A stretch of DNA of 32,974 nt from Acidimicrobiia bacterium (lineage in GTDB: Bacteria; Actinomycetota; Acidimicrobiia; Acidimicrobiales; SZUA-35): assembly GCA_029863385.1 (NCBI GenBank), contig JAOTVU010000043.1, positions 1-32,974 of the forward strand, given 5' to 3'. Each line of letters opens with the position of its first letter. The first letter of the stretch is position 1. The translations under genes were made by a program, and so were the position numbers. A model generated the notes under the pieces. It saw only the letters and a list, made by a program, of their open reading frames with translations. It was not told the origin of the DNA and searched no databases. Positions 11,392-30,306 of the stretch are shown piece after piece.

Positions 11392-12255
11392 TCAGGTCGT
11401 GGCCGTCAGCGCCTCGATACTCGACTCCAGGTAGGCCGTGATGTCGCGGAAGGAGGCCACGCCGGCCGGTCGCTTGGTTTCGGCGAGCAGGGCCACGTTG
11501 GAGTCGACATTGTCGACGAGGGCGGCGATGGCCCGTGACACCGGGGAACGCACCGCAATGGCCTTTGGGGGTGCGGTCATGACGTCGGCCAGGGTCAGCG
11601 AGTTCAGGTCGGCCACCTCGCAGCCGACCTTCATCTGCAGATCGAACTCCGAGAGGGTGCCCACCAGATGCTCCCGGTGATCGACCACCAGCAGTTGGGA
11701 GATGCCCCGATTCCGTAGATGGTGCACGGCGACATCGAGCGATTCGTGCTGGTCGATCATCACCGGAGGATGGAGGTTCAGCCCGGTGAAGTCCACGAAA
11801 TCCAGGCCGTCCCGAACCGCGGGGACCTGATGGGGCTCGTCGATCCGCGACGCCAGCAGATTGGTGATCGTCTGCATCACGGTCCAGTACGACAGGTTGC
11901 CCACGAACCCGTCGTTGGCGCCGATGACGGCCAGATCGCGGATCCACCACCGGTTCATGACCTCGATGGCGTCGGCCACGCTGCGGTCGTTGCTGATCGT
12001 CTTCGGCGGGCCACCCAGCTGGCTCACGATCGGTGTCGACCAGTTGTCCGGTTGCCCGATCGCCCGCTGGAGCACGTCGCGCTGGGTGAATACGCCGGTC
12101 AGCGTCTCACCGTCGAGTATGCAGGCGCACGACCGTTCACCGTTGCGCATGGCCGCAACCGTCTCGGCGACGGTTGCGGATGTCGGCACGGTCACATATC
12201 GGCTCAGATCGAGACTCGATATCGGTGTCATCGTGAGAGCGACGGCAAGGTTCAT
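11392..12255 (-). CDS. Four-CBS-domain protein (two Bateman modules)
   Basis: This 287-residue protein consists almost entirely of four CBS repeats: about residues 9-68 (YVTVPTSATVAETVAAM, ending GVFTQRDVL), 75-135 (KTISNDRSVADAIEVM, ending GNLSYWTVMQ), 155-215 (PVMIDQHESLDVAVHHL, ending GTLSEFDLQMK) and 225-283 (AIAVRSPVSRAIAALV, ending GVASFRDITAYL). CBS pairs bind adenine nucleotides and act as energy or ligand sensors. No catalytic or transport domain is attached, so it presumably acts on a partner. ATG 12255 is preferred because GAGGTG lies 6 nt upstream; a GTG three codons earlier is also open. It lies downstream of the helicase gene on the same strand with a 74-bp gap. Confidence 0.88.
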   Translation of the reverse strand: MNLAVALTMTPISSLDLSRYVTVPTSATVAETVAAMRNGERSCACILDGETLTGVFTQRDVLQRAIGQPDNWSTPIVSQLGGPPKTISNDRSVADAIEVMNRWWIRDLAVIGANDGFVGNLSYWTVMQTITNLLASRIDEPHQVPAVRDGLDFVDFTGLNLHPPVMIDQHESLDVAVHHLRNRGISQLLVVDHREHLVGTLSEFDLQMKVGCEVADLNSLTLADVMTAPPKAIAVRSPVSRAIAALVDNVDSNVALLAETKRPAGVASFRDITAYLESSIEALTATT

Positions 12256-12329
12256 GGCGATCACCTCGGTGGGTGGACGAACAGTTGCTGGACACGGCGA
12301 TCATCGTCGTGTTGTCGACCCCTCTCACC

Positions 12330-15302
12330 TCATCGTCCACCATCGGAGGCCTCGGCGTCAATCTCGGCGGCCACGATTCCGAGAATCTCATCGCCGTACT
12401 GTTCCAACCGCGACGGCCCGATTCCCGGTACGGAGGCGAGTTCCCCCAGCGTCCGAGGCTCGGCGCTTGCTATGGCGTCCAGCGTGCGATTGTTCAGCAC
12501 CACGTAGGCCGGGACGGCATCATCTCTGGCCCGCTCACGCCGCCACCGGGTGAGCGACTCCCGGAGGTCCGCCTCAATGGCCGACTCCGGTTCGGCCCGC
12601 CCGGCGTTGGCGGAACCAGAGCCGGATCCGGATCGGTCTCGGCCTCCCGAGCCGGTCCGGCCGGGAACGCCATCAGGTGATGGCGGCGAGGCGTCGGCCG
12701 CCGGCCACGGCTCGGTGCGAGCCTCGGTCAGCTCATCGACAAAGGGGGACCGTGGTCCCGAGCAGGTGACGGCCACCGAACGGCGACCACGGGTGACGGC
12801 TACGTGGAAGATACGCCGCTCCTCCTCGGTGTCGTCGGCCAGGCGGTGGGGGTAGAGCCCGTCGCGCACGTCGTGGACGACAACATGGGGCCACTCGAGT
12901 CCCTTGGTGGCATGGATCGTGGCGAGTGCGACGGCCGAAACGTCGCCGTGGCCGCCATCGCGGTCGGTTACGCCGCTGTCATCGACGAGTGCCGAAGAGA
13001 GCCGCTCCCGCAGCCAGTCCTCGAACGTGGCCGGGTTCGGGTGCAGCCGGGCCACCGCAAGCAGGGCCAACAGCTCGTCGCCGTGGGCGGCCCGGCGGGC
13101 GGTGCGCTGCGAGCCGTCGAGGGCGGTGGCCGCCCCCATCAGCCCGATGTCGTTGAGGATGTGGTCGAGCAGAGATTCGGTGGTTCCCTCCGCCGACCCC
13201 GATTCGGCGGCCCGCGACCGCAGTTCGGCGATGTCATCAGCCAGACCCCGGACCGACGTGGCGTCACGCTCGGTGTTCAGCCGTTCCGCCAACCGGTGCA
13301 GCTGGGTCACCGACGACTGCTCGCACACCCAGTCGACGATGCGGGGATGCAGCGATCGTGGTGGTCGGCGCAGGGCGAGACGGAGGTCGTCGTCGGCCAG
13401 CCCGTTCTCCGGCCCGGTCGCCAACCGGAGCCAGGCCAGTGCGGCCCCGGAACCGGACCGTTCGAGCATCGAGGGGTCGATACCGCGGGTTCGACGGACA
13501 GGAACACCGATGTGATCGAGATGGATGAAAGCCGGGAGGAGGGCGGCGTGGACCCGGGCCAGAACCGCGATGTCCGACGGCTCGGCGCCGTCATCGAGGA
13601 GACCGGCCACGTGGTCGGCCAGGTTCTGCTGGGGATCGCCGGTGCGGTGAATGACGAGCGACGTGTCGTCGTCGGATCGATCGGGGCCGGCGGTGATGGT
13701 CTTGGCAACCCGGTGACGGTTGTAGGAGAGCAGGTTCACGGCGGCGTCCACCACCGGGGCCGGGCAGCGGTAGTTCGTGGTCAGGAAGTAGTCGGTCGTC
13801 GAACGGTCGCCGCCGTGGCCGAAATAGCGGTCGAAGTCGACCAGCCATCGGGGTGACGCTCCCGAGTAGCCGTAGATCGTCTGATCGTCGTCGCCGACGG
13901 CGAACACCTCGGACGCCGGGCCGGCCAGGAGACGGATCAACAACAGGTGGGCGGGAGTGAGGTCCTGGAACTCGTCGATCAGGATGATCGGCATGAGACG
14001 GCGGGCCGATTCCCGGGCGACAGGGTCGGCGGCCAGGATTTCGACGGCACGCAGCACCTGTTCGTCGAAGTCGACCAGGCCACGATCCCGCAGGTGCTCG
14101 CGGTAGCGGGGCAGGACCTCGTCGAACCCGTCGATGTCGCCGCCGAACCGGTCCGCCACCTCCTTCGGCGGCAGGAGGCCGAGCCGGCAGACGGCCAGGG
14201 CGTCGACCCAGGACTCCAACGGATCGTTCAGTTGACGACGGCGGCGGGACGGAACGAGCCGCCCGAGGATTCGACGAACGTCCCGCTCATCGATCGTGGT
14301 GGCCGGCTCGCCGCCGACGAATCCGGAGCGACCGGTGGTAATGGCGAGGGCCAGGCTGTTGAGGGTGCGAATCGACTCAGGCCGGGCTCGATTCAGGTTG
14401 CCGAGCCGCTCCCACATCTCCGTACGGGCCCGACGGTTGTAGGCCACGAGCGCCAGAGCGTCCGGGGCGATGCCTCGCCCGTCGACGAGATGGCGCACCC
14501 GCTCGGTGAGGACCCGCGTCTTGCCGGACCCGGCCGGAGCGAGAATGCGGGCCGGTCCTCCGGGGTGTGTCACCGCTGCCCGTTGGTCAGGGGCGAGACC
14601 GATGGCCACCTTCACGTCGGGGCCCGGTGGACCGAGCGGCTGGATGGAGCCGACGAGGAGGTGACAGCGGGGTATGTAGCCTCCGTTGCCCAGCCCGGCG
14701 TGGGCGGCGAGGTCGAGGTCGAGCGGGCCGCCGTCGGCGAGGAGGGCCTCGTCGACCGACGCGCCGGCGGCCACCGCAGCGCCGAACGGATCGAACCTCG
14801 GCCCGGGGCCGATGAGGTTGACGGCGTTGGCCGTCACGGCGAAATGCAGTCGATCGCCGGGCGGGTCGCTGTCGGGGCCGAGTTCGTGGAAGGGTCGATC
14901 GAGTGCGCCCGGTTGTGGTGGGCCGTCACCGCCCCAACGGACGACGACCGGCTCCCGGTTGCGCCACGCCGCCAGCAACGTGTCGACGGTGTCCTCGTCG
15001 CTGGTGGCGTCGGCGGGGATCTCCCGACACGACACCCACGGTTCCGGGACGGCCTGGCCCGGCGCGACGACGACGCTTCGACCGAGGCATCGGGGCCCCG
15101 CGAGCCGGGCGACGTCGATGCCGTCCGGTAGCGCGGTGGGGATCGGGGTTGCGGCCGACCTGGCCGGCGACCCGGGCGCCACCACCGGTTCCGAACCGGT
15201 TGACCGTGTCGGTGCCGGCTCCGCCCCGTCAGTGGAGCAGTTCCGGACCTCGGCCACCGACCGGTGGATCCCTCCGCAGTGACCGCAGGCGATACGAGGC
15301 AC
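12330..15302 (-). CDS. UvrD/Rep-type superfamily 1 helicase with N-terminal Cys motif and C-terminal HRDC domain
   Basis: A 990-residue ATP-dependent 3'-5' DNA helicase. Motif I is APAGSGKTRVL (AGSGKT at about residues 257-262), motif II ILIDEFQDL, motif III VFAVGDDDQTIYGYSGASP, motif IV TTNYRCPAPVVDAA, and motif VI is around VAVTRGRRSVAV. The last ~75 residues form an HRDC domain (NNRTLDAIA, TLGELASVPGIGPSRLEQYG), as in actinobacterial UvrD2. Unusually there are ~240 residues before the helicase core, opening with C6-G-H-C9 and C22, a possible small zinc site, followed by a region I do not recognise. The start is GTG 15302, two bases after the stop of the thioesterase gene, which implies translational coupling. 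It probably acts in DNA repair or replication restart. Confidence 0.93.
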   Translation of the reverse strand: MPRIACGHCGGIHRSVAEVRNCSTDGAEPAPTRSTGSEPVVAPGSPARSAATPIPTALPDGIDVARLAGPRCLGRSVVVAPGQAVPEPWVSCREIPADATSDEDTVDTLLAAWRNREPVVVRWGGDGPPQPGALDRPFHELGPDSDPPGDRLHFAVTANAVNLIGPGPRFDPFGAAVAAGASVDEALLADGGPLDLDLAAHAGLGNGGYIPRCHLLVGSIQPLGPPGPDVKVAIGLAPDQRAAVTHPGGPARILAPAGSGKTRVLTERVRHLVDGRGIAPDALALVAYNRRARTEMWERLGNLNRARPESIRTLNSLALAITTGRSGFVGGEPATTIDERDVRRILGRLVPSRRRRQLNDPLESWVDALAVCRLGLLPPKEVADRFGGDIDGFDEVLPRYREHLRDRGLVDFDEQVLRAVEILAADPVARESARRLMPIILIDEFQDLTPAHLLLIRLLAGPASEVFAVGDDDQTIYGYSGASPRWLVDFDRYFGHGGDRSTTDYFLTTNYRCPAPVVDAAVNLLSYNRHRVAKTITAGPDRSDDDTSLVIHRTGDPQQNLADHVAGLLDDGAEPSDIAVLARVHAALLPAFIHLDHIGVPVRRTRGIDPSMLERSGSGAALAWLRLATGPENGLADDDLRLALRRPPRSLHPRIVDWVCEQSSVTQLHRLAERLNTERDATSVRGLADDIAELRSRAAESGSAEGTTESLLDHILNDIGLMGAATALDGSQRTARRAAHGDELLALLAVARLHPNPATFEDWLRERLSSALVDDSGVTDRDGGHGDVSAVALATIHATKGLEWPHVVVHDVRDGLYPHRLADDTEEERRIFHVAVTRGRRSVAVTCSGPRSPFVDELTEARTEPWPAADASPPSPDGVPGRTGSGGRDRSGSGSGSANAGRAEPESAIEADLRESLTRWRRERARDDAVPAYVVLNNRTLDAIASAEPRTLGELASVPGIGPSRLEQYGDEILGIVAAEIDAEASDGGR

Positions 15303-21737: not shown

Positions 21738-23384
21738 TTACGGGTCGCTCAGCGGCGAGGGCTGCTCGACGGTCACCTGCTCGCTGACGATCGACGATGA
21801 AACCGGTGTTCGGCCGGTGCCGGTCACGTCGTCTCGGAACCAGTTGCCGGCACCGATCAGTACGGCCGCGCCGATGACGCTGATGATGGCAACCGTTGTA
21901 ATGATCCTGCGGCGACGGACGGCGACGAACCGACCGACCTTGCCGGCGATGGCGAAGGCCAGCGACGGTTGCTTCATCGGCCAGGTCTCGGTCATCGAAC
22001 CCGGCTCGCGGCTCAAGGCCAGATCCGTCTGGCCATGTTGGTGATCGGGGATCTCGATGATCGAACCCATGGGAGGACGTGGTACGACGGTGGCCGGCGG
22101 GTGCGGTGGGCGCCGATTGGCGTCGTTCCGGCTCCGGTCGTTGCCGCCCGATGGACCCTTCGAGCCACGATCGAGGGCGGTCAAGAAGTCGGCGAGAGGC
22201 TCCGAGGATGGCTGATTCCCGTTTGTCGGCAGGTTGACGAGGTGGGCCAACGTACCAAAATGCTCCGTCTCGTCGTCGAGTTCGCGATGGGCGGCGATAC
22301 CGGGGTCGGTTGGATCGTCGATCCCGATCATCGGAACGTCGAAGGGAACGGCCGTCGGTGTCTCATCCGGATGACGGGCGTCGCGCCGGTCGGGTATCGA
22401 CAAGCCGTTGGCGCCGACGGCCGTGCCCCCGGCGGTGCCGTCGTCGTCAACCGTGACCAGCGGTTCGGCCATGATTGCGCTCAACGGGTCGATGGCCTCG
22501 TCGGACGGAGCGTTCCGGCGGCGCCGGCCGGAACTGCTCCGCCTCCGCAGTGTCGCGTCGAGCGCTCCGGCCAGCTTTCCCGCGTCGGCGAAGCGATTCA
22601 GGATGTTGGCGGAGAGACCGTAGTCGATGATCTCCAGTATCCGTTGCGGCGCGGTGCCGGTCAGTTCGTCGATCACATCGCGTGGGGGTTCCCGATGGTC
22701 GATGGGTCGCCCGCCCAGGAGCGACGCCAGGATCAGCACCAATGAAAAGACGTCCGATGGCGGTATCGGATTCGTATCGTCGGCCAACTCGGGCGCCATG
22801 AACTGGGCCGTTCCATCGTCGAAGCGACGGGTCGACGTTCCGAACGCGACGATACGGGCATCGGCCGGCCTGTCGATCAGAATGCCCGACGGTCGCAGGT
22901 AGCCGAACGAGTAGCCCCTTGCATGAGCCTCGGCGACCGTCTCAGCGGCATTGGCGATCAGCCTGGCCGCCAGGTACCACGGTGTCGGGCCGTGATCGAG
23001 CTGGTCGGCCAGGCTGCTGCGGTGGAGTGGAGAAACGACATACCGTCGGCCGTCGGTCGTGTACCCGTGATCGAGGACCGGCACCCAGTTGGTGCCGCGC
23101 TCGACGATCCTGGTCAAGGCTCGGGCCCGACGGCCGAAACGTCGTGGAATAACCGGCTCGTAGGCCGGGTGGAGCAGCTTGACGGCGACGCCGCCGTCGG
23201 CTGGCTTCGCTCCGTCGCCGGTTGCCACTGCGCGCCAGACCTCGTTACGACGGGTGTCGAGCGCCTCGACGAGAGTGAGGCCCCGAACGATCGTTGTGCC
23301 GTGGTCGTACACCGTTTTCGCCTTTTCCGCCCGGACCAGTCGATCCGAAGGGCTGTCAGCCCGCGCCGACGATTCGACTTGCAA
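21738..23384 (-). CDS. Membrane-anchored Ser/Thr pseudokinase
   Basis: From TTG 23384 this is 548 residues; GTG 23312 is an alternative with a weak AAGG upstream. Residues about 30-285 follow the Hanks kinase fold: the ATP-site Lys is kept (VAVKLL, K69), and so is the activation-segment end (FMAPEL). The catalytic loop, normally H-R-D-x-K-P-x-N, reads F-G-Y-L-R-P-S-G (160-167), so the base Asp and metal Asn are gone. DFG is AFG at 180-182. It should therefore not transfer phosphate, though it may still bind nucleotide or partners. A ~200-residue polar, Pro/Asp-rich linker follows, then a basic RRRR and one TM segment (IITTVAIISVIGAAVLIGAG, about 496-515) and a short external tail. It lies downstream of the unrecognised 286-aa gene (72-bp gap), probably in one transcript, and near an intact receptor kinase. 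Confidence 0.88.
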   Translation of the reverse strand: MQVESSARADSPSDRLVRAEKAKTVYDHGTTIVRGLTLVEALDTRRNEVWRAVATGDGAKPADGGVAVKLLHPAYEPVIPRRFGRRARALTRIVERGTNWVPVLDHGYTTDGRRYVVSPLHRSSLADQLDHGPTPWYLAARLIANAAETVAEAHARGYSFGYLRPSGILIDRPADARIVAFGTSTRRFDDGTAQFMAPELADDTNPIPPSDVFSLVLILASLLGGRPIDHREPPRDVIDELTGTAPQRILEIIDYGLSANILNRFADAGKLAGALDATLRRRSSSGRRRRNAPSDEAIDPLSAIMAEPLVTVDDDGTAGGTAVGANGLSIPDRRDARHPDETPTAVPFDVPMIGIDDPTDPGIAAHRELDDETEHFGTLAHLVNLPTNGNQPSSEPLADFLTALDRGSKGPSGGNDRSRNDANRRPPHPPATVVPRPPMGSIIEIPDHQHGQTDLALSREPGSMTETWPMKQPSLAFAIAGKVGRFVAVRRRRIITTVAIISVIGAAVLIGAGNWFRDDVTGTGRTPVSSSIVSEQVTVEQPSPLSDP

Positions 23385-23456
23385 CGACCAAGGCTAGTCA
23401 ACACCGTCGGCTGTTACCGGGATGCTGGGACGTTGTCGACACCGGTGGATCCGAGC

Positions 23457-24317
23457 TCAGGTCGCACGATCGGGGAGTCCGACGGTGAAGGGCTCGAAGT
23501 GACGTCGGCTCCCGGAGGTGAACCGTCGAAGCGACTCCACCACGAGATCGAGCGTCGGGCGGCCCAAGCGGTCGCCCACCGTGACGAGGAGGAGGGAATT
23601 GGTGAAGACGGTCGCCTGTAGTGGTTCCTGGTCCACCACGTCGTCGACATGGTCTCGCAGCCGGAGGGGATCGAACAGCAGGGCGCTCAGGTGTGGGCCA
23701 CTCAGGATGATCCCCGAGGAGCCGTCGAGAATAAGACGACCCCAGCGGCGCTCGTGCCGTGCTACGGTCTCGGCTGCGATCCCACCCCACACCTGTTCGG
23801 CCAGGCCATCTCCCGGTCCTTCGGGAGCGGTCAGGGATGCCAGGCCCCCGGCGCCCAGGTCGCGCACCAGTTCCCAGGCGGTCTGGCCGAAGGCGGGCCG
23901 AAGCGTTCGCCCCGGTACTCCCTCGACCGAGGTGAGACGGAGCACGATCGGAGCGTCCACCGCCTGCGTGTGACCGCTCCGGTCGGTGCCTGTGATCCGC
24001 TCGACGGCCACCCGCGCTCGGCGCCACCGCTCGGTCTCCCGATCGACCAGCAACGACCGTCCGTCGGTCGGAACGTGAGCCAGACCGGATCGCAGGGGGG
24101 CGAGAGCCGCCGACCAGCGCCGATCGGGCGAGCCGAGCACGTCACCTTCGGCGTCGACCGTGAGGCCCGGCCCGGCGACGGTGTTCAGCCGCTCGGCCAC
24201 GAGATCGGCCGGCAGCCGCGCCGATTCGGTCGGGCTCGGCGGTTGGCATGAGCCCGACGGTGGTTCGTCCCCGTGGCGGTGCCGGCTCCGGTCGCCGTCG
24301 GCTTCACGACCATGCAT
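23457..24317 (-). CDS. Hypothetical protein (286 aa)
   Basis: ATG 24317 with AAGGGG six bases upstream opens a 286-residue frame. The first ~30 residues are polar and probably disordered. The rest looks like a soluble alpha/beta protein with motifs such as DLVAERLNTVAGPGLTVD, RWRRARVAVERI, VWGGIAAETVARHERRWGRL and LQATVFTNSLLLVTVGD. No TM segment, signal peptide, zinc site or catalytic signature is visible. It is transcribed toward the pseudokinase gene (72-bp gap) and divergent from the selenoprotein gene (127 bp). The final third faintly resembles DUF1444-like sequences, too weak to call. A role with the kinase/FHA genes is inferred only from position. Confidence 0.75.
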   Translation of the reverse strand: MHGREADGDRSRHRHGDEPPSGSCQPPSPTESARLPADLVAERLNTVAGPGLTVDAEGDVLGSPDRRWSAALAPLRSGLAHVPTDGRSLLVDRETERWRRARVAVERITGTDRSGHTQAVDAPIVLRLTSVEGVPGRTLRPAFGQTAWELVRDLGAGGLASLTAPEGPGDGLAEQVWGGIAAETVARHERRWGRLILDGSSGIILSGPHLSALLFDPLRLRDHVDDVVDQEPLQATVFTNSLLLVTVGDRLGRPTLDLVVESLRRFTSGSRRHFEPFTVGLPDRAT

Positions 24318-24444
24318 TTGTTTCCCCTTCGCCGTCGGCCCGGTGCCGGCGGGCCGGTCATTCGATTGGGGGAAGGGGCCTCAGCCTAGTCGTCAATGGT
24401 CGACGGAGCGCCTCATCGAGCGGGCCGCTTGGCAGACTGAGACG

Positions 24445-25113
24445 ATGGAGATCGAATTCTGGGTTGATCCGATATGACCATGGTGCTGGGTGACGGCCCG
24501 TTGGGTCGTCGACGAGGTGATGCCCCGGAGGGATCTGTCGGTCGTCTGGCAGCCGATTTCGCTGTTCGAGAAGAACAAGCCGGATCCCGACAGCGACTAC
24601 TACGCGCCAACCAAACAAACCCATGACTATCTTCGCGTGATGGAGGCGGTCCGCCAGGCCGACGAAACCGAAACCGGCGGCCGGGCCGTTTCAACGCTCG
24701 GCGATGACGGCTCCATCGACGATCCGGTCTTCCGGTACTACTGGCAGCTCGGAAGCCGTATCCATCATGATGGTGAGCTTCATTTCGACGTGGCGGAGGC
24801 ACTCTCGGACGCCGGACTCGATCCGGCGCTGGCCTCGGCCGCCGACGATTCGGCCTGGGATGCCGAGATCAAACAGCGGATGGGCGTGGGTCTCGCCCTC
24901 GCCGGAGACGACGTCGGCACGCCACTGATCGCCTTGGACAACGAAGACGGGGAGCGGGTCGCACTGTTCGGGCCGGTGATCACCCGCGTGCCGACCGGAG
25001 ACACCGCCCTGCGGCTCTGGGACGGGTTTGTGGCCATGGCCACCGTCCCCGGGTTCTGGGAGGCCAAGCGGACCCGTACCGAGCGCCCCGATTTCGGTCA
25101 GCGCCCTCGTTGA
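24445..25113 (+). CDS. Probable selenoprotein: Rv2466c-like DsbA-family mycothiol-dependent nitroreductase (UPWC)
   Basis: Reading through one in-frame TGA (24475-24477, codon 11) gives 222 residues. The N-terminus reads VDPI-Sec-PWCWVTARW, matching the DPLCPWCW active site of the actinobacterial Rv2466c family, with the TGA exactly at the first, nucleophilic Cys. The rest aligns well: GSRIHHDGE, DDVGTPLIALDN, ALFGPVI, and FWEAKRTRTERPDF at the end. The family is a DsbA-type thioredoxin fold with a helical insert that uses mycothiol for reduction of disulfides or nitro compounds. A hairpin inside the following codons fits a bacterial SECIS. The frame before TGA is clean and in phase with the family start at ATG 24445. 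Automated calling would begin at GTG 24490 and miss the active site. A nonsense mutation (TGC to TGA) is the alternative. No sel genes lie in the window. Confidence 0.88.
24475..24477 (+). other. In-frame TGA, probable selenocysteine codon
   Basis: This TGA replaces the first Cys codon of the CPWC motif in the nitroreductase homologue; the second Cys is TGC at 24484-24486. Homology on both sides of the TGA is continuous in the same frame. Confidence 0.8.
24496..24518 (+). promoter_or_regulatory. Candidate bacterial SECIS hairpin
   Basis: CGTTG (24499-24503) pairs with CGACG (24510-24514) around the loop GGTCGT. Past a bulged A24515 the stem extends by C24498-G24516, C24497-G24517 and G24496-T24518. 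The apical loop begins 26 nt after the TGA and has G in its first two positions, within the usual bacterial SECIS limits; GGUC also occurs in the E. coli fdhF loop. Confidence 0.6.
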
Positions 25114-25122
25114 TCGTCGCTC

Positions 25123-25680
25123 CTAGTCGCGCAGGTCGATCTCGTCGTAGTCGGTGATGGGACGGCCGCCGAGGTAGTGGACGACGGAGTCGTCGTCATT
25201 GGTCTTCAGGTAGCGGAAGCCGTCGCGCTGCCGCTCGGCCAGACAGCCCAGGTCGATCTGCACGCTGTCGTCCCAGGTGGTGGGGTCGACCTTGATGGCG
25301 ATGCCACCACCGAGTGCCCGGTCGGGGTCGGCCAGATCGATGCGGTCATCCTCCCAGATCACCCTGATGGCCTTGACCCTGGCCTGCAGCCACCCATCGC
25401 AGCGGAGGTAGATCCAGCCGCCGCGGCGGAGATAGTGGGGGAATACACGAGCGGCGAGTGTCGCCGAACCGAGGTGCTTCTCGACCGATGCGACCGGCAT
25501 CGACATGTCGAGATCGCCGGCCAACGGCGAGATCTTGTCGGCCGCCGAGGTCGGGTTCTTCGTGGCCCTCGGTGTGGTGGTCTTCTTGGGAGCAACTTTT
25601 TTCGGCTTTGCCAGGCATTCGAGGCACGCAACCTCGACCTCGTCGTGTTCGCAGTACACGATTGCCGTTGTTGATCCCAT
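25123..25680 (-). CDS. Hypothetical protein with N-terminal CxxH/CxxC motif
   Basis: ATG 25680 gives 185 residues; TTG 25686 adds two and is better spaced from AAGGTG, so the start is open by 6 nt. The N-terminus carries YCEHD and ACLECLA, i.e. C-x2-H and C-x2-C about ten residues apart, a likely small zinc site. A Lys/Thr/Pro-rich linker follows (KPKKVAPKKTTTP), then a folded ~120-residue part with RRGGWIYLRCDGWLQARVKA, VIWEDDRIDLADPDRALGGG and HYLGGRPITDYDEIDL. No family is recognised. Its end is 9 bp from the end of the convergent selenoprotein gene. It lies downstream of the receptor kinase gene on the same strand. Confidence 0.75.
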   Translation of the reverse strand: MGSTTAIVYCEHDEVEVACLECLAKPKKVAPKKTTTPRATKNPTSAADKISPLAGDLDMSMPVASVEKHLGSATLAARVFPHYLRRGGWIYLRCDGWLQARVKAIRVIWEDDRIDLADPDRALGGGIAIKVDPTTWDDSVQIDLGCLAERQRDGFRYLKTNDDDSVVHYLGGRPITDYDEIDLRD

Positions 25681-25822
25681 GCTCAATGACTCACCTTCTG
25701 ACGACCTACTCTGCCATCCAGGACTGTAGTTGCTCGCCGCGAGGAGAAGTGAGAACCTAAACGCAACCGCAAACTAACGGCGCGCCATTGTTCATGTTGC
25801 CGTGGCCCCGATCGGAGTGTCC

Positions 25823-27928
25823 TCAGCCGCTGTTGCCGGTCGAGAAGCTCGCCGTGGCCGAACCGACGCCGCCGTCGGCGCCCGTCGCCGTGACATTGAT
25901 CCGGTAGGCGGTGTTGGGCCGAAGATTCGGAATCGTGTGGTTGAAGGAGGTGACGCAGCCCGTCGGGTCGAGCGACTGAGCCGTCGGCGTGTCGGAGCTG
26001 TCCTCCTCCCGCCAGCTGACCCGAGCGGTGTCGAAACAGGGATTGGAGGTGATGGCGATGGTTATCGACCGTTGACTGAGCGGCAGGACGAGCGACACTG
26101 CGAGATTGTCGAGATCAACCGGTACCGGTACGTCGACCGACGCCGGCAGGCTGAGATCCGATTCGGTCGCGTTCGGGCCCACAGAGGCAACCCGATAGCG
26201 GTAGGAGCCGGGCGAAACCGTCGTGTCGAGGTACGACGGCGACGCCACCTCGTCAAGAATCGCTCCGTCGCGGTACACGATGTAGGACGTCGGGGTCGGA
26301 CCGGACGACGGGACCGACCACGACAGTTCCACGTCGCCTCTGACAGCGCGAGCGGACACGTTGTCCGGCGGCTGAATGGGCCCCGGCACCGATGATGAGG
26401 TCGACGAGGTCGATGACGAACCGGTCGAGGTCGTTTCGGTGGTGGAAGACGCCGTGCTGGCGGTGGTGGACGCCGTCGAGGCCGTCGTGTCGGCGGTGCT
26501 GGCCGTGGTCTGACCGGCGGTCGCCAGGGTGTTGGGCACCGTGACGGCGGTTGTCGAGCTGGTCAGGCCGAACGTCGTCGCCGTGGTGGATGACAGGTCG
26601 ATCGTCGAGGCGGTCGTGGCGTCATCGATCTCGGGTCCGGCCGGTGAGCTCTCGTTCAGCGCCGAGACGCCGCTGTCGGGTTGGGTGCTGTCGCCTCTGG
26701 TCAAGGCCCAGGCGGTGAGGAGACCCACACCCAGCAGCGACACCAAACCGATCAGGAGCGGCCCGAACCGGAACTGGTCGAAGTCGAAGAGCGGTGTGCG
26801 TTCCACGATGGGGGGCGGACCGCCCGAGTAGCGCGAAGGATCGGCGGTCGGCTGCAGGAGCGACCGTTCGTAGCCGCCCACGCCGTCACCCACCAATTCA
26901 GGCCCTCGCTCGATCGTTCGGGCCGAGCTGACCGTCGGGGGTGGCGTGGGACCCTGGTGGGCGAAGACCTGGGTCTGATCTCCGACGGCGGACCCCGGCC
27001 GGTTTCCGTAGGGGACCGGCGGGGGGAACTGATGGAAAGCCGTCGCTTCGTTCTGAGCGGTCACGGCCGACGCCGCGCTGTAGGCACCGGCGCCGTTCAG
27101 CCCGGATTGGGCCATGGCCCCTTTCAGCGCCACCGAGAAGTCTCGGGCGTTGTGGAAGCGGTCGTCCGGGTTCTTGGCCATCGCCTTCGAGATGACCCGA
27201 CAGACGGGTTCCGGCGCCAGGTGCCGCACGTCGCCGAGCGGATTGTTGACGACCCGGCCGATCACGGCCATCAAGTTGCTGTCGTCGCCGGGTCCTAGGA
27301 ACGGCGGATGGCCGACGAGTAGCGCCCACAGGCTGGCGCCGAGGCCGTAGACGTCGGCCGCCGGGCTCGCCTTGCCGTCCAGGAAGGTTTCGGGTGCGCT
27401 GTAGGCGGGCGTGAAGGCGGTGCCGGTCGTGCGGGCCGAGGCGACGGCCGACGACGACACCTTGGCGATACCGAAATCAGCGATACGGGGCGCACCCGTG
27501 TTGGTCAGCAGGATGTTGGCAGGCTTGATGTCGAGGTGGACGACACCGGCCTCGTGTGCCGCGGCCATGGTCTCGGCCGCCACATCGATGTAGCTGATCG
27601 CCGACTGCCAGTCGAGCGGTCCCAGGTCGATCTGGTCCTGGAGCGAACCGTTGGGGTAGTAGGGCATCACCAGGAACGGCTCGCCGTAGCCGGTGACGCC
27701 GGAGCTGTAGACCGGCACGATGCCCTCGTGATTCGACAGCCGCCCCATGGCTTTGCGTTCCCGGTCGAAGCGGCGGACGACGTCGGGATCATGGCCCGAG
27801 TTGATGACCTTAACGGCGATCACCCGATCGAGATCGGCTTGCAGGGCGCGATAAACGCGGGACGATCCCCCCGTCCCGATCTGCTCTACCTCTTCCAGCC
27901 CGTCAATGCCAAGATTGGTAACGCTCAG
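25823..27928 (-). CDS. Receptor-type Ser/Thr protein kinase with extracellular stalk and FN3-like domains
   Basis: With a CTG start at 27928 the protein has 701 residues. The kinase domain (about 10-275) is intact: glycine loop IGTGGSSRVY (17-26), Lys40 in VIAVKV, HLDIKPANILL with catalytic Asp133, ADFGIA with Asp151, and SAPETF. A Pro/Gln-rich juxtamembrane linker leads to one TM segment (about 389-410). Outside lies a Ser/Thr-rich stalk (about 415-515) and then two Fn3-like beta-sandwich regions (DNVSARAVRGDVELSWSV; NLRPNTAYRINVTATGADG) with one Cys pair. The glycine loop lies upstream of the first GTG/ATG (27823), so that start would delete it. No ATG, GTG or TTG was found in frame just upstream; AAGGAG eight bases before CTG 27928 supports CTG. 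It follows the FHA/protease gene by 102 bp. Confidence 0.9.
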   Translation of the reverse strand: MSVTNLGIDGLEEVEQIGTGGSSRVYRALQADLDRVIAVKVINSGHDPDVVRRFDRERKAMGRLSNHEGIVPVYSSGVTGYGEPFLVMPYYPNGSLQDQIDLGPLDWQSAISYIDVAAETMAAAHEAGVVHLDIKPANILLTNTGAPRIADFGIAKVSSSAVASARTTGTAFTPAYSAPETFLDGKASPAADVYGLGASLWALLVGHPPFLGPGDDSNLMAVIGRVVNNPLGDVRHLAPEPVCRVISKAMAKNPDDRFHNARDFSVALKGAMAQSGLNGAGAYSAASAVTAQNEATAFHQFPPPVPYGNRPGSAVGDQTQVFAHQGPTPPPTVSSARTIERGPELVGDGVGGYERSLLQPTADPSRYSGGPPPIVERTPLFDFDQFRFGPLLIGLVSLLGVGLLTAWALTRGDSTQPDSGVSALNESSPAGPEIDDATTASTIDLSSTTATTFGLTSSTTAVTVPNTLATAGQTTASTADTTASTASTTASTASSTTETTSTGSSSTSSTSSSVPGPIQPPDNVSARAVRGDVELSWSVPSSGPTPTSYIVYRDGAILDEVASPSYLDTTVSPGSYRYRVASVGPNATESDLSLPASVDVPVPVDLDNLAVSLVLPLSQRSITIAITSNPCFDTARVSWREEDSSDTPTAQSLDPTGCVTSFNHTIPNLRPNTAYRINVTATGADGGVGSATASFSTGNSG
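26395..26520 (-). repeat. Low-complexity Ser/Thr-rich stalk-coding repeat
   Basis: Within the kinase gene this stretch encodes degenerate repeats of T-A-S-T-A/T units (TTASTADTTASTASTTAS) followed by Ser/Thr/Gly runs. It is the likely extracellular stalk, and short repeats like this can vary in copy number. Confidence 0.6.
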
Positions 27929-28030
27929 GTCCCTCGCTCCTTTGATGCAGAGACGACCTACATGGTAGTCGGTCCCGCGCTCAACGAGCAGTCGGTGGGC
28001 GTATCGACCGCGGTTGCTGAAGCGCCGGGA

Positions 28031-30127
28031 CTATTCGGCCAGGGCGAGCACGGAGCTCAACCAGCCGGAGAAGGCGTTGGTGGTGATGCTCCGGCTGGCG
28101 GTGGAGTCGTCGGAATCACCGGCAAACAGCACGGCCACGACCTTGTCGTCGTGCAGCACGGCGCTCCCGGAGGCACCCTGGCCGCTCGGGAACGACGCCA
28201 GCAACACACCCTTGTCGATGTTCCCCTCGGCCGAACAGGTCACCGTCGGGGGCGAGTCCGGTGGGATGAAGCTGTCGAGGTTCGGGCTCGTGCAGCCGGG
28301 CCACGACGTGAAGTTCGCCGCCTGGCCCGAGGTCGAGGTCACGGCGGACAGCCGGGGGTTGCCCGCGTCGTCGGTATTAGAGACTGAGAACCGGCCCGGA
28401 AAGCCGATGCTGCTCACCGGATCCCCGATCGTGACCGCGCTCGAGTCACCCAACTGCAGCAGCGGTACATCGGCCGAGTCGGCGGGATCGCCTATGGTGA
28501 CGCTGCCGGCGTCGTTGACGGCGGCCTCGTTGGTGATCCTCACCACCGCGATGTCGAGGAACGGATGATTCTCGACGAGGCTGGCGACGTAGCGGATCTC
28601 CGCCGGTTCATCGACTTCGGGCGACACGGCGACAACGAGCTGATCGGCCATGGCGGCGACATGCTGGTTGGTGACGATCATCGATTTCGACACGAAGAAG
28701 CCCGAACCGTGGCCCGACTCGCTCAAGAGCATCACGGTCGACTGCTTGGCCGTGGCCAGCGCCTCGGCCCGGCCCTCGTCACCACCCAGCACGAGCCAGG
28801 CGACGACCGCGGCGATGACCAGCGCGGTGGCGGCCACCACGGCGATCGCCAGGCCGGCGCGGTTCGTCGGTTGCCGGTGCTGGCCTGCCGTGACGACCCG
28901 GAGCTGGGTTCCGGCCGATGGGTCGCCCAGTTGGGCGATGAAGGCACCCTCGACCTTGTAGGGCCGGTTGAGGCGACGGCCGTCGATGTAGGTCCCCTTC
29001 GACGAGGCATCCTCGAGCCACCACGTTCCCTGGGAGTGGACGAAACGCAGGTGCCGGCGGGAGACCAGCGAATGTCGCTCGTCCACCGTCACCAGGCACG
29101 ACGGATCCCGCCCGATCGTGACCTCATGACCTGGTAGGAAGACGTAGTCCTCACCGTCGATCTGCAGGCGCAGCGTGTCGGTTTCGACGAACGTGGCCGC
29201 CGGACTGTAGCTCTGATCCGGGGTGGGCTCGCCGAACGGCGGTGGCTCGTTGACGTCACCGAAACCGCCGGTGCCGTAATTCGGGCGCGCTGCGCTCAGA
29301 TCGAGCGGCTGATTGGGCGGGTTCGACCAATCCGTCGGGTTCGAGTCGTAGCGGTCGGCCCCGATAACTGCCGAATTCCGGCCCTTGCCGTCGGCGGTCC
29401 AATCGTGGCGGACGCCGTCGAGCTCGACGACCGGAGCCCCGTTCCTCAGATCAACGACCGAACCGTCGGCGACCCGCTCGTCCACCCCGACGCCGTGTTC
29501 GTCGAGCGCCACCGGTTGCCCCGACGACGCCTCCATCGACTCGCCGTGTTCGAACCGGCTGATCTCTCCCATCTCCACCAGTTGCTCCGAAGCGGGGGAG
29601 TAGGCCCGGTTCTGGTAGTGGGAGTCGCTGTCGAATCGTGACATCGAACCGGCCGGCTCGGCGACGGGTCCACGGTTGAGATCGTTTTGATCGCCACCGC
29701 CGCCCACTCCGAGCATGCCGGCGGAACCGGCCGACGGATCCGGTGGAGGTGGCGGACCGAAGTCGACGACGGTCGGCGGTGAGTCTGGATCGGCGTAGGG
29801 GTCGCGGAGAGCCTCTTCGCCGAGCGCGCGGGTGATCAGCCGCATGGAGAGCTCGACCCCACGGGGACTGCCGAGGCGGATTACCACGTCCGTGCCAAGC
29901 GTCCACGATGGTGACAGCCGTACCCCGATCGGATCGTAGGATCCGTGTGTCGACGTATCCTCGGCCTGCCAGTTCCGCCCGTTCCAGTTCATCGTCAGGT
30001 GACGGCGCGAAACCGTTCCCTGTGGAACCACGACGGCGGCGCTGGACGAACGGCCGATCAGCACCGGAGAGTCGTCCGGACTGAACCGTAACCGGCCGCC
30101 CGGCCAGGTGATTTCGAGGTCATGCAT
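28031..30127 (-). CDS. Two-FHA, single-TM, HtrA-like serine protease
   Basis: From ATG 30127 this is 698 residues. FHA domain 1 is at about 22-95 (LIGRSSSA, VSRRHLTM, STHGSYD) and FHA domain 2 at about 335-405 (TIGRDPSCLVTV, LVSRRHLRFV, SSKGTYIDGRRL); FHA domains bind phosphothreonine. A 230-residue Asp/Pro/Gly-rich linker joins them. A TM segment at about 424-447 is followed by a trypsin/HtrA-like domain with the triad H489 (TNQHV), D525 (LDIAVVRI) and S653 (GASGS). The Ser motif is GASGS rather than GNSGG. Two Cys (611, 631) could form a disulfide outside. Topology should place FHA domains inside and the protease outside. GTG 30142 is an alternative start. It is immediately upstream of an active kinase gene, the natural source of a phosphothreonine signal. 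Confidence 0.92.
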   Translation of the reverse strand: MHDLEITWPGGRLRFSPDDSPVLIGRSSSAAVVVPQGTVSRRHLTMNWNGRNWQAEDTSTHGSYDPIGVRLSPSWTLGTDVVIRLGSPRGVELSMRLITRALGEEALRDPYADPDSPPTVVDFGPPPPPDPSAGSAGMLGVGGGGDQNDLNRGPVAEPAGSMSRFDSDSHYQNRAYSPASEQLVEMGEISRFEHGESMEASSGQPVALDEHGVGVDERVADGSVVDLRNGAPVVELDGVRHDWTADGKGRNSAVIGADRYDSNPTDWSNPPNQPLDLSAARPNYGTGGFGDVNEPPPFGEPTPDQSYSPAATFVETDTLRLQIDGEDYVFLPGHEVTIGRDPSCLVTVDERHSLVSRRHLRFVHSQGTWWLEDASSKGTYIDGRRLNRPYKVEGAFIAQLGDPSAGTQLRVVTAGQHRQPTNRAGLAIAVVAATALVIAAVVAWLVLGGDEGRAEALATAKQSTVMLLSESGHGSGFFVSKSMIVTNQHVAAMADQLVVAVSPEVDEPAEIRYVASLVENHPFLDIAVVRITNEAAVNDAGSVTIGDPADSADVPLLQLGDSSAVTIGDPVSSIGFPGRFSVSNTDDAGNPRLSAVTSTSGQAANFTSWPGCTSPNLDSFIPPDSPPTVTCSAEGNIDKGVLLASFPSGQGASGSAVLHDDKVVAVLFAGDSDDSTASRSITTNAFSGWLSSVLALAE

Positions 30128-30306
30128 GCTTCTGGACTCCACCGATGGTCGTCATCGGGACGACCGATCGGTCACGACACCAAGGTAACGGGAGTTGCGT
30201 CGGAAGCGACAGTCGAGGCGAGTGTCGAGGCCAACATGACCGGGTGCCGGCCCGAGGTCGTGGCAGCCAGGAGATCATCACCCGTTCGACGGGGACGGGA
30301 TTGATG

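Follow-up and report, generated by a model that had tools for sequence, protein, structure and literature searches.

A predicted selenocysteine form of the Rv2466c-like oxidoreductase family in Acidimicrobiales

We analysed a stretch of 32,974 nucleotides (hereafter the window). It corresponds to contig C258 in a draft assembly of 5.04 Mb (293 contigs, 91.9% complete, 5.6% contaminated). Sequence comparisons indicate that the in-frame TGA at codon 11 of the gene at 24445-25113 is very probably decoded as selenocysteine (Sec) in an Rv2466c-type oxidoreductase, and they strongly support a Sec form of the Rv2466c/DsbA-Mrx1 family that is common among close relatives in one order. The mycothiol system of actinobacteria is commonly described as their counterpart to glutathione, and the present reading, if true, would place selenium in that system. 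Since the standard gene call cuts off the protein just past its active site, the Sec form is likely to be overlooked or to be labelled as a truncated nitroreductase. The features of the gene are as follows.

24445..25113, + strand: predicted selenoprotein gene, Rv2466c-like; the product has 222 residues including Sec, followed by a TGA stop
24475..24477, + strand: codon 11, an in-frame TGA interpreted as Sec; pairs with the nucleophilic Cys19 of Rv2466c
24484..24486, + strand: codon 14, TGC, putative resolving Cys of UPWC; invariant in a 29-row alignment, role by homology to Cys22 of Rv2466c
24492..24510, + strand: SECIS-like hairpin, arms 24492-24499 and 24503-24510, loop GUU at 24500-24502
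24916..24924, + strand: Gly-Thr-Pro, residues 158-160, invariant in the 29-row alignment and aligned in Rv2466c; by its position we take it to be the cis-Pro loop of the thioredoxin fold
25111..25113, + strand: terminal TGA, the ordinary stop of the selenoprotein gene; homology stops just upstream

Reading frame, family and fold

When TGA was translated as U, the gene read MEIEFWVDPI-U-PWCWVTARW... in a single frame through to the TGA at 25111-25113; the gene text around codon 11 is MEIEFWVDPI-TGA-PWCWVTARWVVDEV..., in one frame. With Cys substituted at codon 11, residues 10-209 matched PF22234 'Mycothiol-dependent nitroreductase Rv2466c' (E 1.3e-36) at 126.9 bits against a gathering cut-off of 27, and a weak match to PF01323 (DSBA; E 3e-9) was obtained with the same substitution. 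The first Cys of the CPWC/CPFC motif of PF22234 is replaced by UGA (Sec) and the remaining motif is retained. The window protein is, by its predicted sequence, a Sec form of the Rv2466c-like family and not a standard member. A search of NCBIfam at E up to 1 gave a single weak match, TIGR00411, at E 0.059 and far under its cut-off. Therefore, no NCBIfam selenoprotein model covers the window protein.

A sequence search of the PDB returned four matches, namely Rv2466c (4zil, 4nxi, 5xur) and an M. leprae protein (4wkw). The alignment begins at residue 4, ahead of the TGA, and places residue 11 opposite position 19 of the Rv2466c chain. An AlphaFold2 model of the window protein (pLDDT 94.4, pTM 0.91) had Rv2466c 4zil as its best PDB fold match (E 2e-14, TM 0.75-0.81, 34% identity), and the next matches were Deinococcus DsbA-like and FrnE structures at 15-17% identity; the fold matches Rv2466c far better than FrnE. 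The assignment to the Rv2466c-like family made in the earlier note is thus borne out by sequence (PF22234, PDB alignment) and by fold (model against 4zil). The translation, the PF22234 match and the PDB alignment likewise agree with its description of a TGA lying in frame where CPWC has its first Cys, with homology on both sides in one frame. About 17 extra residues are present in the window protein (near residues 75-95; window 24660-24730), and all or most of them are absent from the other 28 rows of the alignment.

As the earlier note had anticipated, a standard (table-11) gene call shortened the gene to GTG 24490..25113, 207 aa. The same start is given by the standard list of open reading frames, and it would fit a nonsense mutation, an assembly error or a pseudogene with a restart at GTG 24490, which would leave a truncated protein without the active site. 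However, conservation at the protein level extends 5' of the TGA. Every row of the 29-row alignment has W6, D8 and P9, and the codons of D8 and P9 vary silently while the residues stay fixed. The remainder of the gene is open, and the TGA recurs in most relatives, as described below. The upstream conservation, the open frame and the recurrence led us to reject the truncated gene, and we regard any reading as a broken gene as very unlikely. The arrangement is retained in most of the close relatives, which indicates a genuine family of selenoproteins.

Codon 11 in relatives and the selenocysteine machinery

A match was found in 108 of the 148 genomes of the window's order. Codon 11 is TGA in 26 of the 30 order loci fetched, the window among the 26, and TGC in the other four (L024, L042, L044, L045); two further copies, L160 and L161, also have TGA. 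A wider contig scan yielded 286 relatives, of which the best 80 were kept. Among these best 80 of 286, codon 11 is TGA in 79 and TGC in one (L120), and the titles of the 80 records are all of MAGs, mostly of Acidimicrobiia, Acidimicrobiales or Acidimicrobiaceae. The order set and the named-record set share organisms, and 93 Sec genes remained once identical sequences were removed. Neither TAA nor TAG occurs at codon 11 in the 30 order loci or in the 80 named-record loci. Because TGA predominates to this extent in both sets and the other two stop codons appear in neither, the TGA at codon 11 is not a matter of chance. The alternation of TGA and TGC, for which the earlier note proposed aligning close homologues, is therefore present at this codon.

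The genome of the window contains a tRNA-Sec (66.3 bits, over the cut-off; called SeC(tca) by ARAGORN), selB (267 bits) and selA (396 bits) adjoining on contig C265, and selD (342 bits) on contig C127, which are the four genes that the earlier note had named for a search. That note would have given up its reading if the machinery were missing and no other genome had TGA at this site; the machinery is present and TGA occurs here in many genomes. The selD gene (G000:C127:7135-8115, L047) itself has an in-frame TGA at GAG-U-ACKI, the usual Sec site, and served as an internal control. Contamination is an unlikely source of the machinery because selA was found in each of the five genomes that represent the window's family in the order sample.

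Across the order, selA was matched in 89 of the 148 genomes (86 above the cut-off), compared with every one of the 26 UPWC genomes and of the 35 genomes where any Sec form was found, the window's own included. The probability of these co-occurrences by chance would be 3e-7 for the 26 and 6e-10 for the 35 if the genomes were independent, which they are not. The genomes of all four order loci with TGC are also selA-positive. Since TGC is found in these four of 30 loci and in one of the 80 others, Sec is not indispensable at this position. Sec and Cys forms thus occur naturally within one enzyme family, some of the Cys forms in genomes with selA, and they would provide a series in which to ask why Sec is kept or dropped.

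That TGA is open in frame would also be expected if UGA had been reassigned to Trp or Gly throughout the lineage. We consider this extremely improbable. The selenoprotein gene itself ends in TGA; TGA is found only at the Cys codon in the relatives examined; selA, selB and eight genes of the window are open under table 11; and the presence of the Sec machinery and the constraint on the downstream hairpin speak further against the reassignment.

The hairpin downstream of codon 11

The arms GACGGCCC (24492-24499) and GGGUCGUC (24503-24510) form a stem of 8 bp, with 14 nt from the TGA to the stem and 22 nt from the TGA to the loop. In 75 distinct rows, 583 of 600 cells of this stem are paired, and 0 of 2000 shuffles were as good. 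The earlier note had proposed a SECIS-type hairpin after the TGA, and this part of its claim holds for the stem at 24492-24510. Comparison of the rows lends little support to the hairpin that it described, CGUUG / GGUCGU (loop) / CGACG: 329 of 375 cells pair, and 19 of 2000 shuffles did equally well. This hairpin was dropped in favour of the GACGGCCC/GGGUCGUC stem. The latter lies just 3' of the UGA and has a small apical loop with a guanosine, in agreement with the SECIS loop rule (PMC1088965, excerpt).

Over 105 Sec rows (63 distinct 40-mers), 489 of 504 cells are standard pairs, whereas the shuffles averaged 475.5 (sd 1.5) and 0 of 5000 reached the observed count; the pairing shuffles ignore the kinship of the sequences. 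When the partner arm was slid by up to four bases, only 87-301 of the 504 cells paired. In the fourth pair, the silent third positions of the Thr17 and Val21 codons meet, and the counts are G-C 47, A-U 6, G-U 4, U-A 3, C-G 1, U-G 1 and A-C 1. By the shuffle comparison, which takes no account of kinship, the Thr and Val codons appear to change in concert, as expected of a bacterial SECIS. In a tree-aware analysis, with three supported pairs only, a change at the Thr site was accompanied by one at the Val site in one pair, and the Val site was the same within the other two. Under parsimony, the Thr site takes 9 changes on the tree and the Val site likewise 9, and the two taken together need 12, suggesting that about six coincide.

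The silent sites of the hairpin are unusually conserved. Codon diversity at Val16, Thr17, Ala18, Val21 and Val22 is 0.04-0.30, compared with 0.37-0.73 (mean 0.59) at 25 other four-fold codons. Arg19 is encoded only by CGT, AGG and CGG, although elsewhere in the gene several Arg codons are often CGC; the apex is consequently always GUU or GGU. In AGG rows (12 of the 75 distinct rows) the closing pair is a non-standard A-G. Folded by itself, the window stretch does not stand out from its shuffles (z -0.43; 60 of 200 did equally well); the evidence for the hairpin is comparative. When 12 rows were folded singly, 10 formed the stem, and the lowest-energy fold differed in two (L116, L033). One locus cut by a contig end, L046, is in the 30-locus codon count and the 105-row hairpin set and is absent from the codon-diversity and tree sets.

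Among the Cys rows, 18 of 19 retain 1-6 of the 8 pairs. L024, a TGC form in a selA-positive genome, has all 8 stem pairs intact, and is likely a recent Sec-to-Cys change.

Redox chemistry, clades and published relatives

In the proposed mechanism, UGA at codon 11 would be decoded as Sec by tRNA-Sec and SelB, directed by the hairpin within the coding sequence after the 14-nt spacer. The product would be an Rv2466c-type (DsbA-Mrx1) thioredoxin-fold oxidoreductase in which U-P-W-C replaces C-P-W-C. Cys19 is the nucleophile and Cys22 the resolver in Rv2466c (PMC8280269, excerpt), and Sec is placed at the attacking position because residue 11 aligns with Cys19. By homology, the selenolate would attack disulfides or mycothiolated (mixed-disulfide) substrates, Cys14 would resolve the intermediate, and mycothiol, mycothione reductase and NADPH would restore the reduced state. 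Actual insertion of Sec into the protein is what this mechanism predicts, and Sec, with its lower pKa, would be expected to speed the reaction. By analogy with characterised members, the partner and substrate of the window enzyme would be mycothiol and mycothiolated disulfides.

The best matches in the window's own genome were 538 bits for mycothione reductase (cut-off 636; next match 270), 376 bits for MshA (cut-off 463; next 109) and 413 bits for MshC (cut-off 485; next 301), all three falling below the curated NCBIfam cut-offs; the MshC-like gene also passes cysS (346 against a cut-off of 340). These matches suggest that the genome probably has mshA, mshC and mtr, and mycothiol dependence of the window protein is plausible. 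We judge it somewhat more likely than not that mycothiol is the electron donor. Alternatively, the TGA may encode Sec in an enzyme served by another thiol or thioredoxin system, or in an isomerase or thiol peroxidase, with mycothiol not the partner. The identity to Rv2466c of just ~34%, the mycothiol genes under the curated cut-offs and the lack of a conserved gene neighbour indicating a substrate speak for such an enzyme, to which we assign a real chance, well short of even. However, by far the strongest match is to Pfam's mycothiol-dependent family, and the characterised members, Rv2466c and those of C. glutamicum, reduce mycothiolated disulfides via MSH/Mtr/NADPH and show no oxidase activity (PMC8280269, excerpt).

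In a tree of 94 proteins, the window clade (clade A) comprises 47 Sec and 6 Cys rows (support 97/97) and includes UPWCW and UPFCW forms. The minimum number of Sec/Cys changes on this tree is 8, of which 5 are forced by supported branches. A second, distant PF22234 clade (clade B, support 100/100) has UPWC in eight order genomes (G004, G052, G056, G085, G094, G098, G119, G130; Sec loci L165-L170, L186, L193) and CPWC in five (G012, G030, G038, G057, G067). The other members of clade B share 46-80% identity with L169, and clade B loci missed by the active-site regular expression were read by tblastn. All 19 clade B relatives read from the phylum search (L214-L232) have Cys. The eight clade B Sec genomes and G093 all have selA (9/9). 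In G093, one PF22234 gene, L164 (G093:C15:7219-7860), reads DPI-U-PFAW, with Sec at the nucleophile and Ala at the resolving position; in the tree it lies nearest to L158, a CPFA paralogue from the window's own genome. The stretches after the TGA in clade B and L164 were folded and inspected, and any hairpins there are candidates only. Two more relatives are arranged divergently next to each other in the window's genome (G000:C4:11445-12077, - strand, and 12255-12812, + strand), and the first is CPFA, without the second Cys.

Among the matches listed for the clade B query in a partial sample of 396 genomes across the phylum, no TGA was found outside the order. With the window query in the same sample, the loci read outside the order all have Cys. 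The TGAs flagged in other listed rows are probably terminal stops, because their alignments run to residues 220-221. Identical sequences were removed, as were near-identical Sec rows before the trees were built (94 Sec rows to 72 in one tree; 54 Sec rows in the 94-protein tree). Among the phylum loci L132-L157, 12 escaped the regular expression; coordinates were used to place five of the 12, together with three other loci, in the trees, and seven were omitted. A further 20 order loci were picked from stop-flagged rows, not all of those flagged, and gave 7 with TGA at the active site and 13 with a stop near the end. Owing to this choice and the omissions, the Cys side of the 94-protein tree is an uneven sample. 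We see an even balance for the view that Sec was recruited to the mycothiol redox chemistry of one actinobacterial order, the nucleophile having changed to Sec apparently more than once (clade A UPWC/UPFC, clade B, perhaps UPFA) with repeated returns to Cys, and that selenol-based demycothiolation is a working branch of the DsbA-Mrx1 family.

The window protein shares with the Rv2466c / DsbA-Mrx1 cluster (PF22234; CPWC or CPFC) the sequence family, the fold and the positions of the nucleophile and resolving Cys, and differs in its predicted Sec nucleophile in place of Cys and in the SECIS-like hairpin in its coding sequence. The DsbA-like selenoproteins (COG2761; PF01323 form 1) also belong to the DsbA superfamily and have Sec at the first CxxC position, but the window protein fits PF22234 far better; the two are set apart by published descriptions and may be the same family. 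In 2005, a Sargasso Sea study predicted nine DsbA-like UXXC selenoproteins under COG2761 (PMC1088965, excerpt), and such proteins recur in PMC1794560, PMC9312934 and PMC9402790 (excerpts). A 2026 review lists, in the part available, 119 families or subfamilies, including 'DsbA-like form 1, PF01323, UxxC' (PMC13188914). Published examples include NIP15863.1 (PMC13188914, excerpt) and AACY01178397 (PMC1088965, excerpt). Sec-containing thioredoxin and Prx-like proteins share the UxxC redox motif and belong to other families, PF00085 and PF00578 (PMC13188914, excerpt).

The words 'nitroreductase', 'mycothiol' and 'UPWC' are absent from the available part of the 2026 review (PMC13188914), and DsbA, Acidimicrob* and mycothiol are not mentioned in the available main text of the deep-Sep paper (PMC12013277). 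The open-access literature gave nothing linking selenoprotein or selenocysteine with Rv2466c and nothing on selenoprotein, Actinomycetota and SECIS together; judging by the titles listed, it holds no selenoenzyme of the mycothiol system and no Sec form of bacterial FrnE. A search with Acidimicrob* and selenocysteine led to a sponge metagenome with SelA and SelB in most symbiont bins (PMC5649159, excerpt). The earlier note knew of no described Sec form of this family; this has to be qualified, since DsbA-like UxxC Sec proteins, some of which may be of the Rv2466c type, were already predicted (PMC1088965, excerpt). Because these have been in print since 2005, the window gene adds to a kind already published. 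A selenol-based demycothiolation branch, the chances for and against which seem to us equal, is in no NCBIfam model and no selenoprotein paper among the open-access ones examined.

No conserved partner gene was found across the 79 TGA loci and the window. The largest neighbour families are the gene itself (80 loci) and an overlapping frame on the opposite strand (72 loci), which was taken as an artefact. A same-strand neighbour lies just downstream at 22 loci, and at 20 loci there is an opposite-strand neighbour some 1.7 kb upstream; neither was named by the search. Within 21738-30142 of the window, the minus strand encodes a protein kinase-domain protein (25826-27823) and an FHA/trypsin-like protein (28034-30142). 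A weak kinase-domain match, under the Pfam cut-off, is found at 21741-23384 on the same strand.
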